In this document: piece by piece, positions 12,614-62,194 of the stretch
How the letters are laid out: each line of letters starts with the position of its first letter
How positions within the stretch are numbered: the stretch's first letter is position 1
Source of the DNA: a virus
Strand: one strand, 5' to 3'
Virus record (IMG/VR): IMGVR_UViG_3300027782_000032
Location: 62,001-126,000 of that record
Length of the DNA stretch: 64,000 nt
Made by a program: the position numbers and the translations under genes
Notes under the pieces: model-generated
The model's database searches: none
The model's input: the letters and a program-made list of their open reading frames with translations, nothing else
What the model was told of the DNA's origin: nothing

Positions 12614-13108
12614 CTAGTTTGCAAAAACTTTTCCAGCTTTTGCGTACTTGATTGTAGCTGAGGCGTTTATAGCCTTAAGCGACAGCTGTAGATCCGGTGG
12701 CATCACCGCCAGCTTAGCCCACTGTGGGCTAGTGGATGAGAATGCCTTAGCTGCATCTTTACCAAAGTGGTAAAGTACAGTCTCATCAAAACTATCATTA
12801 GCTAGCTCTGCGGCTAACTCATCCGACGGAAGACGATGAGTCTTGTCGAAAAAGCTAGCCTTAAAACTATCGATGTACGCCACTACATACGCCTTCTTCA
12901 CGGCATCGTAAGCCGACTCCTGCGGAGCCACTTCAATCGCCACCTCAGGCTCTACTGCAGGAGTAGCCTCAGGCTCCTCAAGCAACCTTAAAGCCATTTC
13001 TGAAGCAGCTGCCGATGCCTTCCTATCTGTGTATACCTTACCAAAAACTAGAATTGAGCATACAGAGACCACAGAAATCACAGCCCAAAAAACCTTATTA
13101 GTATTCAT
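12614..13108 (-). CDS. Hypothetical signal-anchored protein
   Basis: 164 residues. N-terminus has a hydrophobic segment (VFWAVISVVSVCSILVFG, about residues 6-23), likely a signal anchor, followed by a Glu/Pro/Ala-rich linker and a helical C-terminal domain. No family recognised. Stands alone in a cassette: promoter P2, a 95-nt leader nearly the same as that of the gene at 46876, AAGGAG eight bases before the ATG, and terminator T2. The coding sequence holds several perfect hairpins (TAGCCCA/TGGGCTA at 12715-12731, CTTTACC/GGTAAAG at 12757-12775, ACTCATC/GATGAGT at 12817-12841). Confidence 0.75.
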   Translation of the reverse strand: MNTNKVFWAVISVVSVCSILVFGKVYTDRKASAAASEMALRLLEEPEATPAVEPEVAIEVAPQESAYDAVKKAYVVAYIDSFKASFFDKTHRLPSDELAAELANDSFDETVLYHFGKDAAKAFSSTSPQWAKLAVMPPDLQLSLKAINASATIKYAKAGKVFAN

Positions 13109-13114
13109 GGTTAT

Positions 13115-13203
13115 TTCTCCTTTAATGAGATGGCCACCACAGCCAGTTAATTACAACAGTGCAAGAACTCTTACTGAGCTCCTGAACACTATTGTATTCA
13201 ACT
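13115..13203 (-). repeat. Conserved cassette leader, copy 2
   Basis: 5' untranslated leader of the gene at 12614-13108. It matches 47250-47336 over nearly its full length, including the AAGGAGAAATAACC ribosome-binding site, although the two proteins look unrelated. Confidence 0.8.
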
Positions 13204-44200: not shown

Positions 44201-44590
44201 TTAGTAAGAAGGAGATTGAACTCTTCTCTCTATTCGTTCCCAAGCACCATCGTGCAAATCAACGTCGTAAGCTGATACAGCGTTGATAATTGCCTTAGAC
44301 AGAGACTTAGAGTCTCTACCGAAGTTGATGTTTATACGATGCTTTGTGACAGCTATTATAACATTCCCTGGTGTTATGACCATTACCTCCCATGGAGCTA
44401 GGTCAACCACCTGTGCCCAAGTATCCGAAAACAGCTTCCATTCTTCCGTCACTACTCTGAGACGTCCTTTGAAGTCGTCAAAGTCATGACTTGGGTTATA
44501 TTCCCCTGCAATTGAAGCCATGTGATTTGCCACCGACTGGAACACGTCGTTTATGTTCGCTTCGTTTAATCCAATGTTCAATATGTACAT
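44201..44590 (-). CDS. Hypothetical cassette protein
   Basis: 129 residues, no family recognised; alternating beta-like segments (WEVMVITPGNVIIAVTKHRININFG) and helix (SLSKAIINAVSAYDV). AAGGAG lies eight bases before the ATG. Has its own promoter (P4), leader hairpin and terminator (T4). The coding sequence carries several perfect inverted repeats, such as AGAGACT/AGTCTCT (44301-44317), ATAACA/TGTTAT (near 44359) and CTTTGA/TCAAAG (near 44468). Confidence 0.7.
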   Translation of the reverse strand: MYILNIGLNEANINDVFQSVANHMASIAGEYNPSHDFDDFKGRLRVVTEEWKLFSDTWAQVVDLAPWEVMVITPGNVIIAVTKHRININFGRDSKSLSKAIINAVSAYDVDLHDGAWERIERRVQSPSY

Positions 44591-44672: not shown

Positions 44673-44681
44673 TAACCACTA

Positions 44682-44710
44682 TATTATGACGCACTTATGG
44701 GTTGGATTAA
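44682..44710 (-). promoter_or_regulatory. Cassette promoter P4
   Basis: Minus-strand TTAATC, 17-bp spacer ending TGCGTC, ATAATA. A palindrome copy adjoins the -35 side with no gap. Confidence 0.7.
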
Positions 44711-44726
44711 GTGGAGACGTCTCCAT
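44711..44726. repeat. Dispersed palindrome, copy 8 (promoter-linked)
   Basis: GTGGAGACGTCTCCAT, perfect 14-bp core, directly upstream of P4 and directly downstream of terminator T5. Confidence 0.9.
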
Positions 44727-44730
44727 TGGC

Positions 44731-44762
44731 TGATAGCTAAAAAAAAGCAGGATGATCCTGCT
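44731..44762 (-). terminator. Cassette terminator T5
   Basis: AGCAGGA / TCCTGCT stem (44746-44752 / 44756-44762), leftward U-tract, AGCTATCA. Ends 44769-45146. Confidence 0.85.
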
Positions 44763-44768
44763 CTCGGG

Positions 44769-45146
44769 TTACCCCTCTTGACCAACGACTCCCCACAGAC
44801 TGAAAGGAGAAATCTCCTTCCACTCGGTAATGTCGTTTGACCGCATGGGCTTCCACCCATTTGCACGGTCCAAGCACATGGTAATGTGCTTGCGGACGTT
44901 CCGACTAGGAACGTCCGTATCGACTTCAACGGCCATTACGCCGTCGAGTCGACCGACACGAACTACTTTTAGTTCGTGTCGTTGACCATTGAGATCCTGT
45001 GCCATACTGTTACATATGGGAAGAAGGTCAACGGTCATATGGTGGCATATGACCTCGAAGTGTTTGGGCACTTCGAGGTTTGCGTGCATCCACGCCACCA
45101 AGATGGATACACTGTCCTTTTCAAGGACGCAAGCCGTGTAGGCCAT
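44769..45146 (-). CDS. Probable 2H-phosphoesterase-like protein, hairpin-tiled gene
   Basis: 125 residues from the ATG at 45146 (AGGAG seven bases ahead). Two His-x-Thr motifs, HHMTVDL (H36, T38) and KHITMCL (H97, T99), are placed as in 2H phosphoesterases, RNA end-processing enzymes that include the small phage 'RNA repair-like' proteins. Between them lies a basic LKVVRVGRLDGVMAVEV stretch. Function inferred, not proven. The coding sequence itself is built of consecutive perfect hairpins with stems up to 12 bp (see the separate repeat entry). Own promoter (P5) and terminator (T5). Confidence 0.7.
   Translation of the reverse strand: MAYTACVLEKDSVSILVAWMHANLEVPKHFEVICHHMTVDLLPICNSMAQDLNGQRHELKVVRVGRLDGVMAVEVDTDVPSRNVRKHITMCLDRANGWKPMRSNDITEWKEISPFSLWGVVGQEG
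44804..45128. repeat. Array of perfect hairpins inside a coding sequence
   Basis: Stems in order: 7 bp (44804-44819), 5+5 bp nested (44839-44870), 9 bp (44871-44892), 10 bp (44893-44917), 5+5 bp nested (44921-44951), 12 bp (44954-44981), 9 bp (45033-45054), 10 bp (45053-45078), 5 bp (45082-45095), 6 bp (45114-45128). The 9-12 bp stems have loops of 4 to 6 bases. Confidence 0.95.
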
Positions 45147-45211
45147 TTTTAGTCTCCTAAAAATAAGACGAGGCGCCATCTATTTGATGACTGGTACCTA
45201 TACTTGCACCT

Positions 45212-45240
45212 TATTATGACACACTTATGGGTTGGATTAA
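45212..45240 (-). promoter_or_regulatory. Cassette promoter P5
   Basis: Minus-strand TTAATC, 17-bp spacer ending TGTGTC, ATAATA; palindrome adjoins at 45241. Confidence 0.7.
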
Positions 45241-45256
45241 GTGGAGACGTCTCCAC
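45241..45256. repeat. Dispersed palindrome, copy 9 (promoter-linked)
   Basis: Perfect GTGGAGACGTCTCCAC, no gap to P5. Confidence 0.92.
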
Positions 45257-45320: not shown

Positions 45321-46118
45321 CTACTTGCAGGTTCTGCACACTCTGAAGCAAAGTCGTGTACGGTCATCTCTGCCGAACCAGCCTTCTGATTCGGTTGGAA
45401 ACATAGATTTGTCATATCCGCCTGATAGAACTACCACTCTTTTCCATTCTATAGCATCAAGATTAGGCACCTTGATCGTAGTTTCCTTATATTTAGTTAC
45501 TTTATACCTTTTATAACCAAGCTTCTTTCCTGCTCCACCTGCAATACATTTAATCTCCTCTCCTGGCTGAGGGCCCTTAGGGTTATATTTAGGTATTTCA
45601 ATACCAGTAGGTGCTCCAGGGTACTCTTCGCTTACCTCTAAGTTCTCTAGGCCTGGGATCCCTGTAGTGTAGTTGCAGCTGTTAAACCGAGACCACGATT
45701 TACCATTCCAGTGGTGGTAACAATAGCTAGAGTACCCTTCATAGCTATAATCCTGACACCACTCGCCTATGGGGTGACTTCTTCGGGCAGTACCTAAAAC
45801 AGAACGTACCCAGGTAAGCTCCAACTCAGCCTGAGTTGGTAGCCTAAATACTGACTTGTTTATCCTACTTTTATTTAGCCGGGTTATGAACTCCTGGCAA
45901 TCATACCAAGACACGCTGGTTATAGGGTCGTCATGGTTTGCGTTCCAAGGGATAGTCTCAGTAGACCACCACTTTCCAGATTTAGTCCTGTTCATACCCA
46001 GCTCATACCACCTCTTTATAGTTATCATAGGTGATATAGCAAACTCTGATACTATTACTGGGTGTCTATACCATCTATCTATAAAACTTCCTTTAAATCT
46101 AACTAGAGTAGACATCAT
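45321..46118 (-). CDS. FGE-sulfatase / C-type-lectin-fold protein
   Basis: 265 residues. SUMF1/FGE-like fold: ITIKRWYELG near 33, DPITSVSWYDCQEFITRLN near 64-82, FRLPTQAELELTWVRS near 92, GEWCQDYSY, and a C-terminal GRDDRTRLCFRVCRTC like the family's R...GFRV ending. Such domains form formylglycine-generating enzymes, adhesins and variable receptor-binding proteins. No reverse transcriptase or repeat template is nearby. AGGAGG lies just before two ATGs; the second (46115) is equally likely. Own promoter (P6) and terminator (T6); an 8-bp hairpin CCAACTCA/TGAGTTGG lies in the gene. Confidence 0.75.
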   Translation of the reverse strand: MMSTLVRFKGSFIDRWYRHPVIVSEFAISPMITIKRWYELGMNRTKSGKWWSTETIPWNANHDDPITSVSWYDCQEFITRLNKSRINKSVFRLPTQAELELTWVRSVLGTARRSHPIGEWCQDYSYEGYSSYCYHHWNGKSWSRFNSCNYTTGIPGLENLEVSEEYPGAPTGIEIPKYNPKGPQPGEEIKCIAGGAGKKLGYKRYKVTKYKETTIKVPNLDAIEWKRVVVLSGGYDKSMFPTESEGWFGRDDRTRLCFRVCRTCK

Positions 46119-46291: not shown

Positions 46292-46597
46292 TTACGCAAT
46301 CCTTCTTGGGGATTGCTTGATCCACTGCACGACCTCATCCCAGCTCTCGCTGGAGAATTGGTCTTGCTGTGAGTTTGACGACATGTACATACAGCATGAG
46401 TCATCCCAGTCGTTAAGCAACACACAGCTGAACTGCTGCGACTCGGTGTCACAGTCAACCATAACACCGCAGAGTCGCTTAGTACTCTTAATCTGGGCAG
46501 AGCTGCTGCCGTATCCAACCACACGTTTGAACCCTGCTCTACGCAGGGAGTCAGACAGTTTAACGCAGGGCAATAAAGATCTTACTAAAGTAGTCAC
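46292..46597 (-). CDS. Hypothetical cassette protein
   Basis: 101 residues from a GTG at 46597, chosen because GGAGG lies five bases ahead; an ATG at 46609 has no ribosome site. No family recognised; Ser/Gln-rich with DWDDSCCMYMSSNSQQDQF, four or five cysteines, and a C-terminal amphipathic helix (SWDEVVQWIKQS). Own promoter (P7) and terminator (T7). Hairpins in the coding sequence include GCAATCC/GGATTGC (46296-46316), GCGACTC/GAGTCGC enclosing CGGTGT/ACACCG (46438-46478), and CCCTGC/GCAGGG (46532-46548). Confidence 0.7.
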   Translation of the reverse strand: MTTLVRSLLPCVKLSDSLRRAGFKRVVGYGSSSAQIKSTKRLCGVMVDCDTESQQFSCVLLNDWDDSCCMYMSSNSQQDQFSSESWDEVVQWIKQSPRRIA

Positions 46598-46673
46598 GAG
46601 AACCTCCATGTAGCTAATAATAACGCAGGCGATGAACTTTAGAGCTCATCTACTAATACCTACGTATACACCT

Positions 46674-46702
46674 CATTATGACGCACTTATTGGTTGAATT
46701 AA
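46674..46702 (-). promoter_or_regulatory. Cassette promoter P7
   Basis: Minus-strand TTAATT, 17-bp spacer ending TGCGTC, ATAATG; drives 46292-46597. Confidence 0.65.
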
Positions 46703-46727
46703 GTTAAGCTAGGTAAGATGGTTCTTA

Positions 46728-46875: not shown

Positions 46876-47244
46876 CTAAGCGACTATGTCGGACCAGCCT
46901 CTCAAGTCTGAACGATGTGAAGAAGACTTAGTGGCTATTGCACACAGTTCTTCTACGTCGTTACCGTTAAGGAAAGCTGAGACAAACTTCACCACTCCCG
47001 TCCATGAGTACAACCTGTACTCATAGTCGGCTGGAACACCGCTCAAACCCAAGCTGTCGACTAGTCTTGGACCGCATAGAAACGTAGTGACTAAATATCT
47101 CCCGTCGTCATCCGCCTCAGCCACCAACGCAGATCTATTGGACTCTACGCTAGGAGCAATTAAAGCAGACGAGTAGCTCCTTGACTTTCTAATCTGGTCT
47201 TTAAAGCCTGGTAAATTAGCGTGTAGTTTCTCAATAATAGTCAT
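46876..47244 (-). CDS. Hypothetical cassette protein
   Basis: 122 residues from the ATG at 47244, with AAGGAG eight bases ahead. No family recognised; mixed alpha/beta with YLVTTFLCGPRLVDSLGLSGV and YRLYSWTGVVKFVSAFLNG. Shares its 95-nt leader with the gene at 12614-13108. Own promoter (P8) and terminator (T8). Hairpins include ATGAGTACA/TGTACTCAT (47004-47024, 9 bp, 3-base loop) and AAGTCT/AGACTT near 46905. Confidence 0.7.
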   Translation of the reverse strand: MTIIEKLHANLPGFKDQIRKSRSYSSALIAPSVESNRSALVAEADDDGRYLVTTFLCGPRLVDSLGLSGVPADYEYRLYSWTGVVKFVSAFLNGNDVEELCAIATKSSSHRSDLRGWSDIVA

Positions 47245-47249
47245 GGTTA

Positions 47250-47336
47250 TTTCTCCTTTAATGAGGGCTACCACAGCCGGTAAGTACAACAGTGCAAGCG
47301 CTCTTACTGAGCTCCTGAACACTATCGTATTCAACT
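47250..47336 (-). repeat. Conserved cassette leader, copy 3
   Basis: Near-copy of the leader at 13115-13203, 34 kb away. Confidence 0.8.
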
Positions 47337-47365
47337 CATTATGACGCACTTATGGGTTGGATTAA
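47337..47365 (-). promoter_or_regulatory. Cassette promoter P8
   Basis: Minus-strand TTAATC, 17-bp spacer ending TGCGTC, ATAATG; palindrome adjoins at 47366. The spacer is identical to that of P4. Confidence 0.7.
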
Positions 47366-47381
47366 GTGGAGACGTCTCCAC
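47366..47381. repeat. Dispersed palindrome, copy 10 (promoter-linked)
   Basis: Perfect GTGGAGACGTCTCCAC, no gap to P8. Confidence 0.92.
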
Positions 47382-57454: not shown

Positions 57455-57501
57455 TAGCTAAAAAAAACAATCCGACGCCCTCCTAAGAGGGAATCGGATT
57501 G
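57452..57501 (-). terminator. Cassette terminator T9
   Basis: CAATCCGA / TCGGATTG stem (57468-57475 / 57494-57501) with an inner CCCTC/GAGGG, leftward U8, AGCTATCA. Ends 57508-58158. Confidence 0.9.
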
Positions 57502-57507
57502 TGAGTT

Positions 57508-58158
57508 TTACTTGGTGACAGACTGCCGTGGCAGCCTTACCCTATTAGGCTGGAAGAACTTGTACAGCTCCTCCAGACCAAGTCCGGCAGCCTCCAAGGA
57601 GGACCTGGTAACCACCTGAGGCTTTGGTAAGCCGTCTTGATCTACGAGTCCGTCTACGCACTCGTATATTCTAGCTGGCTCAGCTAAAACCGAATCCTCC
57701 AAAATGGCGCATGGCGCCATTCTGTATGGCGCCATCAACTTGATGGAGCCAAGAAGCGCAGCCTCTAGGGCCTCTGGAGCTTCCGCACCAGAAGCTATAG
57801 AAAGAGACTCAAGACTGACGTCGTCCGAAGACGACATCATTCCGTAACCAATTGGAAGTGCAACTGCCTGAGGGATTAGATCGCCCGTATCGAACCGGTC
57901 CAAAGCCCGGTCGAACGCCCTCCTGTTGGAGGGGGATCTTTTGCAGAAAGGCCTAAAGGCCTTTCCCAGAGGATCGATTGCTTGCCTAGCCACGTACCCG
58001 TAAGGGTACGCCTTAGCCCTGGAAAACACGCCAACTACCCCGTTAGGGTAGCCGACAATAACGCCTGTTTGCCCTACAGGCAAAAAGGATTCTTTAAACC
58101 CCTCCTCCCATGCCGATGGAGTTATGGTGATTAGAGCCAAGTCCTTTAGCTGAGACAT
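57508..58158 (-). CDS. Hypothetical cassette protein, hairpin-rich gene
   Basis: 216 residues, no family recognised; it has GQTGVIVGYPNGVVGVFSRAKAYPYGYVARQAID near 28-61 and an Ala/Leu/Glu-rich helical C-terminal half. Second gene of the P9 cassette, 18 bp after 58177-58458, ended by T9. The coding sequence is dense in perfect hairpins: GAAAGGCCT/AGGCCTTTC (57946-57965), AATGGCGC/GCGCCATT (57703-57721), TACGAGT/ACTCGTA (57643-57666), CGTACCC/GGGTACG (57993-58010), and at least seven more. Confidence 0.75.
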   Translation of the reverse strand: MSQLKDLALITITPSAWEEGFKESFLPVGQTGVIVGYPNGVVGVFSRAKAYPYGYVARQAIDPLGKAFRPFCKRSPSNRRAFDRALDRFDTGDLIPQAVALPIGYGMMSSSDDVSLESLSIASGAEAPEALEAALLGSIKLMAPYRMAPCAILEDSVLAEPARIYECVDGLVDQDGLPKPQVVTRSSLEAAGLGLEELYKFFQPNRVRLPRQSVTK

Positions 58159-58239
58159 GCAGATACTCCTTGAAAATTACTTCTTCTTTACCCATAGAAT
58201 ACTGTCCTTCGGGACAGTAAGCTGGGGCCTTGGGGCCCC
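57523..58239. repeat. Array of perfect hairpins across two cassette genes
   Basis: Stems include 57523-57534, 57591-57602, 57643-57666, 57703-57721, 57733-57745, 57820-57835, 57918-57933, 57946-57965, 57993-58010, 58035-58051, 58063-58081, 58201-58218, 58224-58239; 5 to 9 bp each, without mismatches. Confidence 0.88.
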
Positions 58240-58458
58240 TTTAGTATCGGGTCTCAGTGTGCAGGCCACTTGGCCATCACTCTGAGCCCTTCGTCGGACC
58301 ACTTCTCTGAGTGATCCTCCGTATTGGACATGTGGCCTGTAACCAGGGCCAGCACCGTCCTGGGATACCTTCCCATTTTTACCCTTTGAAAAGTTGACCC
58401 ATAAAAGGGCCACTACAAAGGAGGTCAACACAAGGCCTGCCACCGTGTTTTCAAACAT
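58177..58458 (-). CDS. Small membrane-anchored protein
   Basis: 93 residues from the ATG at 58458, which follows AAAGGGG. One N-terminal transmembrane segment (VAGLVLTSFVVALLWVNF, about 6-23), then a basic, Gly/Arg-rich body (LREVVRRRAQSDGQ) ending WVKKK. No family recognised. First gene of the P9 cassette. Includes hairpins ACTGTCC/GGACAGT (58201-58218) and GGGGCC/GGCCCC (58224-58239). Confidence 0.7.
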   Translation of the reverse strand: MFENTVAGLVLTSFVVALLWVNFSKGKNGKVSQDGAGPGYRPHVQYGGSLREVVRRRAQSDGQVACTLRPDTKGAPRPQLTVPKDSILWVKKK

Positions 58459-58493
58459 GGCCGCCCCTTTCTGCCACCCATAAGGTAGCACTA

Positions 58494-58522
58494 TATTATG
58501 ACGCGTTTAAGAGCTGGATTTA
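58494..58522 (-). promoter_or_regulatory. Cassette promoter P9
   Basis: Minus-strand TAAATC, 17-bp spacer ending CGCGTC, ATAATA; drives 58177-58458 and 57508-58158. Confidence 0.65.
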
Positions 58523-58523
58523 G

Positions 58524-61411: not shown

Positions 61412-62194
61412 TTAGTTTACCTTCTTAAATCCTCGTTCAGACATCTCTCTAAACTCCTCAAAAAGATGATGAGTAAGTTTACAGTCAAAGTCAGCTTCGT
61501 GAGCGCTGCCTTGAAGGCTGTGCTTATTAACTAAGTCATATTTCTTAGAACAGTGCTTGTCTAAAGAACTGTAAAGCCTTCCACCTTCTTTTATAAGCCT
61601 TACATTGAAGCTAAACCAATCGTCACCAGGGTTAGGAGTCAGCTTACACTGACTTCCACGCTCTAGACCCATAGTATCAAAGTAGCTCATGCCTGAGCCT
61701 TCAAGGCTGAAGCTCTCGTTGTCGCCTCTAAGTTGCTTTACGCACCTATCTATCATTGGCTGGTCAAACCTAAGCCCGTTATGTGCTATAAAACTGAACT
61801 TATTAGCCTTACATAGTTTAACTATGTCCATAAAGTGAGTAAAAGCATCGTAGGCAGGTATGCCATGCTGCTTCATTCTTGAAATGCTGTGCTTATACAC
61901 AGAAGTGCCAGGCTCTCCAGGGTTCTTAGAGTCCATAGCGTTTTTGGTAAAAGCCATGCGGTTATCAAGCCAAGCACAAAAGTCTGGGCTGCTGTTATGA
62001 GTCCAGTCCACTATGAAGCTGCCGCAATCAACTAGTGAGCGATTGTGTACTAGAACATACCCCAACTGCACCACTAAGTCGTTTGATAAATCCAAGCCTG
62101 TTGACTCAACATCAAACACTATGTAGTTGGAAGGTAGCGGTCCAAGTTTAGATACTACCTTAGCCATCCACACGTCAGACTCTTCATCTATCAT
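61412..62194 (-). CDS. DEDDh 3'-5' exonuclease (DnaQ/RNase T type)
   Basis: 260 residues. ExoI FDVESTGLDL with D28 and E30, ExoII FIAHNGLRFDQPMID near 134-148 with the third acidic residue, and ExoIII GSAHEADFDCKLTHHL near 234-249 with H and D. Likely proofreading or nucleic-acid turnover activity; substrate not known. No polymerase domain is attached. AGGAAG precedes the ATG. Confidence 0.9.
   Translation of the reverse strand: MIDEESDVWMAKVVSKLGPLPSNYIVFDVESTGLDLSNDLVVQLGYVLVHNRSLVDCGSFIVDWTHNSSPDFCAWLDNRMAFTKNAMDSKNPGEPGTSVYKHSISRMKQHGIPAYDAFTHFMDIVKLCKANKFSFIAHNGLRFDQPMIDRCVKQLRGDNESFSLEGSGMSYFDTMGLERGSQCKLTPNPGDDWFSFNVRLIKEGGRLYSSLDKHCSKKYDLVNKHSLQGSAHEADFDCKLTHHLFEEFREMSERGFKKVN

Follow-up and report, generated by a model that had tools for sequence, protein, structure and literature searches.

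Hairpin-tiled coding sequences in promoter- and terminator-bounded units of a double-stranded DNA phage, including the gene of a predicted 2',3'-cyclic phosphodiesterase

Analysis of a 64,000-nucleotide stretch of viral DNA (positions 62,001 to 126,000 of the IMG/VR record IMGVR_UViG_3300027782_000032, hereafter the window) revealed a minus-strand gene, 45146 to 44769, whose coding sequence (CDS) is tiled with perfect hairpins. The whole record of 190,371 bases belongs to a double-stranded DNA (dsDNA) phage with a tailed-phage portal gene, and the window gene is its densest stretch of perfect hairpins. Comparison with related phages, which were located via their portal protein (42-100% identity), placed this gene within a set of tiled transcription units whose folding points to selection acting on the mRNA. 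The unit of the window gene comprises the following elements, in the direction of transcription:

45210-45241, minus strand: unit promoter CTTAATCCAACCCATAAGTGTGTCATAATAAG (TTAATC-16-CATAAT)
45145-45164, minus strand: A/T hairpin of 8 bp over the ribosome-binding site and start codon, with the Shine-Dalgarno sequence in or beside the loop
44769-45146, minus strand: hairpin-tiled CDS, 125 amino acids, 2H 2',3'-cyclic phosphodiesterase-like (tRNA-ligase cyclic phosphodiesterase, CPD, family)
45052-45079, minus strand: perfect hairpin, stem 11 bp, loop 6 nt
45033-45054, minus strand: perfect hairpin, stem 9 bp, loop 4 nt, end bases in common with the 11-bp hairpin
44980-45033, minus strand: longer hairpin CGTTGACC...GGTCAACG enclosing a weak inner stem
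44954-44981, minus strand: perfect hairpin, stem 12 bp, loop 4 nt
44893-44917, minus strand: perfect hairpin, stem 10 bp, loop 5 nt
44871-44892, minus strand: perfect hairpin, stem 9 bp, loop 4 nt
44795-44828, minus strand: hairpin toward the 3' end of the CDS, arms 81% complementary, loop 2 nt
44733-44762, minus strand: unit terminator AGCAGGATCATCCTGCT, T-run and AGCTATCA

The open reading frame (ORF) is preceded by AGGAG, and between its long hairpins lie additional stems of 5-7 bp as well as nested stems. The initial annotation had listed stems of 9, 10, 12, 9 and 10 bp; the first four sizes were reproduced, while the last stem measures 11 bp. In the predicted minimum free energy (MFE) structure, 136 bp are paired, corresponding to 72% of the 378 nt. 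When compared with 1000 codon shuffles, in which both the protein and the codon usage were kept, the gene displayed five stems of at least 8 bp versus 0.25±0.50 in the shuffles (maximum 3), an MFE of -192.3 kcal/mol versus -126.8±6.9 on the sense strand, and -163.3 versus -118.3±6.4 on the antisense strand. These controls exclude chance or composition as the source of the hairpins and bear out both the excess of structure and the need for selection beyond the protein that had been claimed from the first reading. In a survey of codon-shuffle z scores that covered 785 of 1118 ORFs from seven related phages (G009 and G012 were left out), the z of -13.4 obtained for the window gene was the lowest of all (median -1.35, robust standard deviation 1.56).

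The two His-x-Thr (HxT) motifs originally noticed in the frame, H36-x-T38 and H87-x-T89, are kept in 20 aligned homologues, and the alignment of this 20-member family further contains the block GGKPxxSNxITxW. PF08302, the fungal tRNA-ligase cyclic phosphodiesterase domain, was matched by 19 of the 20 members (best 1.1e-06), the window protein itself being unmatched. The AlphaFold2 model of the window protein (predicted local distance difference test, pLDDT, 96.9) found its best Foldseek PDB matches in CNPase, the 2',3'-cyclic nucleotide 3'-phosphodiesterase (probability 1.00, best E 9e-4, TMq about 0.60-0.74). Because of the Pfam CPD matches in 19 of the 20 members and the CNPase fold matches, the window protein is predicted to be a 2H-type 2',3'-cyclic phosphodiesterase of RNA repair, tRNA-ligase CPD/CNPase-like. 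A clear homologous protein and the absence of an Rfam match (0 against 4227 families) rule out a noncoding RNA at this position. Homologues are found in crAss-like, Lak and Agrobacterium/Sinorhizobium jumbo phages and at 32 IMG/VR loci. For 2H enzymes of jumbo phages, a role has been proposed in removing cyclic 2'-3' ends so that RNA can be ligated (PMC7824862). The likeness to these 2H phosphoesterases (PF08302, CNPase and the jumbo-phage enzymes) lies in the two HxT motifs and the fold, and it extends to fusions, as several relatives may carry the 2H domain C-terminal to a P-loop kinase-like domain or a CCA-adding-like nucleotidyltransferase.

The genes of these relatives differ in being mostly free of hairpin tiling: for most 2H homologues the codon-shuffle z is close to 0 and long stems are lacking. 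The same protein is therefore commonly encoded without the stems, an arrangement that the initial annotation had raised against its own reading, while a few homologues do show a weaker hairpin excess (L035/L036 with stems of 10, 8, 8, 6, 6 and 6 bp, L044 with 12, L046 with 11, and L004 with z -4 to -7.5). At locus L035 (2998-4498), the 2H gene, with a moderate excess, is immediately followed by genes for a TrmH-like methyltransferase and an RNA-ligase-like nucleotidyltransferase, probably forming an RNA-repair operon.

Because most 2H homologues are untiled, tiling as a trait of the 2H family was ruled out; it is a property of the transcription unit. The clade's conserved sigma70-like promoter, CTTAATYCAACCCATAAGTGCGTCATAAT, was found by weight matrix at 43 sites in the seven phages and at none in shuffled DNA, and the terminator of the small accessory units ends in TTTTTAGCTATYA. 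The first gene after this promoter has a median z of -4.7 (27 genes) versus -1.31 among the 758 remaining genes (p=5e-11), with a matrix that was seeded in part from tiled loci; with an earlier regular expression, built solely from repeats around the window gene, the p value was 0.004 (nine genes). Similarly, the gene preceding the terminator signature T5+AGCTATYA has a median z of -4.9 (18 genes) versus -1.32 (p=4e-9). The cassette regions of the relatives contain further tiled genes (L095 19463-19942, z -10.5; L105 13791-14075, -12.7, and 12786-13154, -8.2; L104 6293-6742, -8.1), which encode unrelated proteins and have in common the layout of promoter, ORF or ORFs, and terminator. The products of tiled genes are small proteins of accessory or membrane-like type, and the window RNA-repair gene is the one among them with a recognised function. 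The window unit itself is located in a hypervariable cassette locus; the 2H gene had no match in the searchable records of the relatives, several of which are fragmentary and do not extend across this locus. The genes on either side of it lie much nearer each other in G005.

A second tiled unit, which we designate preB-B, was identified upstream of the gene preceding the portal:

58492-58523, minus strand: promoter of the preB-B unit, CTAAATCCAGCTCTTAAACGCGTCATAATATA
58177-58458, minus strand: preB, tiled, membrane-protein-like, in the unit of gene B
57508-58158, minus strand: gene B, tiled, 216 amino acids, no PHROG match, with tiled syntenic counterparts in 9 of 9 relatives
57460-57507, minus strand: terminator of the preB-B unit, CAATCCGA...TCGGATTG TTTTTTTT AGCTATCA

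What had been described as a single-gene phenomenon is thus a gene set: it includes this 57508-58458 unit, and each relative examined also has tiled units. The preB-B unit is tiled in all nine relatives analysed (z -4.3 to -12.9), the gene separating it from the portal has z values of -0.1 to +1.8, and its other neighbours mostly range from +0.6 to -4.3, occasionally to -6.6. Gene B proteins of the relatives are about 18-33% identical to that of the window, apart from one pair at 88%, and the z remains low throughout (-8.1 and -6.4 for the 88% pair, -6.7 for an orthologue at 30% identity). Within the 88% pair, different hairpins occupy the same place (GGCTACCC/GGGTAGTT in the window and ACCCCAACG/CGTTGGGGT in G002), and elsewhere a stem is retained via a paired change (CCCTCC/GGAGGG to CCCTTC/GAAGGG). 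Because hairpins differ in part and other stems are kept by paired change, bulk structure persists while individual helices turn over. Three scans yielded no additional gene B orthologues, and a chimera test, in which the differing codons of the window and G002 versions were randomly swapped, was used instead of pairwise covariation. None of 150 gene B chimeras was as stable as the natural pair (z -3.1) and 2 of 200 preB chimeras reached natural-pair stability, compared with z values of -0.37, +0.15, -1.55 and +2.34 for four neighbour genes. The AlphaFold model of gene B had a pLDDT of 40.8. In three relatives, gene B is separated from the following gene by some 500-600 nt that lack a long ORF (L053 7880-8500, L054 8225-8900, L055 8397-9050); this interval is predicted to be highly structured (L053 z -5.8 versus dinucleotide shuffles), the L053 interval has no Rfam match, and the region is a candidate large noncoding RNA.

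A DNA hairpin is equally good on either strand, whereas an RNA hairpin can exploit G-U pairs on one. Of 21 tiled CDSs, a sample that includes orthologues and is not fully independent, 18 showed the greater excess over shuffles on their mRNA strand (mean z -1.74; window gene -3.8), versus a mean of -0.11 with 54% negative among 100 background ORFs. Because of this mRNA-strand excess and the co-adapted changes in the arms, our results favour selection on RNA over DNA cruciforms, contrary to the DNA-shape role that the initial annotation had entertained. In addition, a single helix among 277 continuous predicted helices of at least 6 bp reaches 13 bp or more, where a geometric fit expects about 10, and this sharp drop beyond 12 bp is no more than suggestive of selection, as codon constraints could have a share in it.

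To account for these findings, we tentatively propose, in line with the nuclease shielding suggested among other roles in the initial annotation, that tiled transcripts were selected for dense local structure that hardens the mRNA against single-strand-specific RNases, an explanation that could well be correct. The small accessory genes of the clade would form self-contained units, in each of which a sigma70-like promoter precedes one or two ORFs and transcription stops at a terminator that ends in a U-run and AGCTATYA, and the transcripts of many such units would have been selected for consecutive short hairpins covering 65-72% of the CDS. The selected trait would be bulk foldedness rather than any individual hairpin. 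Because 65-72% of the tiled RNA is predicted to be paired, it should offer few sites to single-strand-specific nucleases, making these mRNAs harder substrates for host RNase E and for RNase-type anti-phage defences. RNase E is a major actor in the turnover of T4 early mRNA (PMC3014915). Almost all continuous helices in the tiled units are predicted not to exceed 12 bp, which would be short enough to escape RNase III. Helices of about one turn are expected to be poor substrates of that enzyme. Tiled units would in this way stay expressed during the destruction of unstructured RNA, and the 2',3'-cyclic phosphodiesterase of the window gene would aid the repair of cleaved RNA; the presence of an RNA-repair enzyme among the tiled genes fits this scheme. 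A broader picture, which is conceivable and more speculative, is that of 'armoured' phage units, in which a dedicated promoter and terminator and an mRNA built as a chain of hairpins of about one helical turn confer resistance to both single-strand RNases and RNase III, keeping host-takeover and RNA-repair functions expressed amid RNA destruction. If hardening is indeed the function, chosen genes would be kept on during an RNA-degrading defence, and the units would offer a naturally evolved design principle for long-lived mRNAs in bacteria.

Several considerations weigh against hardening. Tiling is missing from some units that carry the same promoter (46876-47244, z -1.3), codon constraints may produce the helix-length cap as a side effect, and the hairpins might be made by template switching with selection merely filtering them. 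Moreover, the starts of tiled genes show no clear relief from structure (unpaired fraction 0.41 versus 0.48 in the background), and because of this a translational role is still to be reckoned with. Dense CDS structure could slow or gate ribosomes, thereby limiting or timing accessory proteins that would harm the host too early, an explanation that we regard as unlikely yet credible. The start region of the window gene does lie inside the A/T hairpin (unpaired 0.24), and the products of tiled genes are of the small accessory or membrane-like kind that such control would suit. However, tiled genes possess strong Shine-Dalgarno sequences, on average more of the RNA is unpaired at their starts than in their bodies (0.41 versus 0.35), and the structure extends over the whole CDS, not just its start.

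A mutational origin, in which template switching (quasipalindrome correction) at replication writes hairpins with little or no function into highly transcribed units, appears rather doubtful to us. A single switching event can produce perfect stems (PMC8794818), and homologous genes do carry different perfect hairpins at matching places, as seen in the gene B pair. Nevertheless, tiling is restricted to particular promoter-bounded units in several genomes and the reading frames are intact. A functionless cluster of switching events would be expected to show no strand preference, an expectation at odds with the sense-strand excess in 18 of 21 tiled CDSs against the 54% background; template switching by itself does not predict an mRNA-strand excess via G-U pairs, to which coding-strand C-to-T change could contribute.

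Evasion of RNA-guided immunity, whereby structure hides strongly expressed accessory transcripts from CRISPR type III/VI or antisense RNA, is improbable: hiding a target would need bulk structure without conserved individual helices, as observed, but other expressed genes in these phages are untiled. A DNA-level role, with cruciforms or single-stranded DNA hairpins serving cassette recombination or exchange, is highly improbable despite the position of the window unit in a hypervariable cassette locus, given the sense-strand bias, stem sequences too different for a common recombinase site, and structure that spans entire CDSs and not cassette ends.

Hairpin-tiled genes in dsDNA phages were not found reported in the open-access literature searched, in agreement with the initial remark that no described phage gene class is built in this way. 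The closest known form is the genome-scale ordered RNA structure (GORS) of RNA viruses (2004, RNA 10:1337, as cited in PMC11409064), which the tiled units resemble without being members. The likeness lies in coding RNA folded in bulk past codon or sequence controls, and the difference lies in the carrier, which here consists of selected dsDNA-phage mRNAs bounded by promoter and terminator and not of a whole RNA genome. In the tiled units, predicted folding energy is well under sequence controls throughout the coding RNA; these units belong to a 190-kb dsDNA phage, not an RNA virus, and only some of its units are structured. In GORS, bulk structure is reportedly kept while helices turn over, as found here in tiled units. 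The single-stranded RNA phages MS2 and Qbeta likewise have structured genomes with coding RNA tiled with short hairpins; in their case the tiled RNA is the packaged genome, whereas the tiled RNA of the present units is transcribed from dsDNA-phage genes. With a promoter and terminator of their own, phage morons and early accessory genes resemble the tiled units as autonomous promoter-ORF-terminator cassettes at variable loci, although hairpin-tiled ORFs are not known to have been described for either. The tiled units point to a heritable layer of RNA structure over protein-coding genes of dsDNA phages that is limited to identifiable units, and they render the long-standing question of the role of dense CDS structure in bacterial mRNA testable via natural replicated cases with same-genome controls.

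Among 295 ORFs at 26 loci of other phages, one was clearly below z -6 (L024 3608-4099, z -7.9, stems of 10, 7 and 6 bp), and no ORF was below z -5.1 in the stretches examined of Arash and D69, named phages that share the portal and are too distant. Tiling is therefore rare outside the clade and may not be unique to it. At L047 (4213-5379), an IS607-type TnpB CDS contains many perfect hairpins with stems of up to 12 bp, which are G+C-rich against a background of 25% G+C.

Three further promoters of the same type were located around the window gene:

44680-44711, minus strand: promoter of the next unit (gene 44201-44590, weakly structured, z -3.1)
46672-46703, minus strand: promoter of the 46292-46609 unit (z -3.8)
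47335-47366, minus strand: promoter of the untiled 46876-47244 unit

The unit beside the window gene (45321-46118) encodes a protein with an FGE-sulfatase, or formylglycine-generating-enzyme-like, domain. In addition, the 12-bp palindrome GGAGACGTCTCC (usually AGTGGAGACGTCTCCACT) occurs in 23 copies in the 190-kb record, including window positions 44713, 45243 and 47368, and every other 12-bp palindrome of this phage is single-copy at most. The relatives G001-G006 also have the palindrome, at 0.6-1.3 per 10 kb, whereas G007, G008, G009 and G012 lack it. With copies mostly 4-16 kb apart and often intragenic, it looks like a candidate dispersed protein-binding site, stoperator- or centromere-like.
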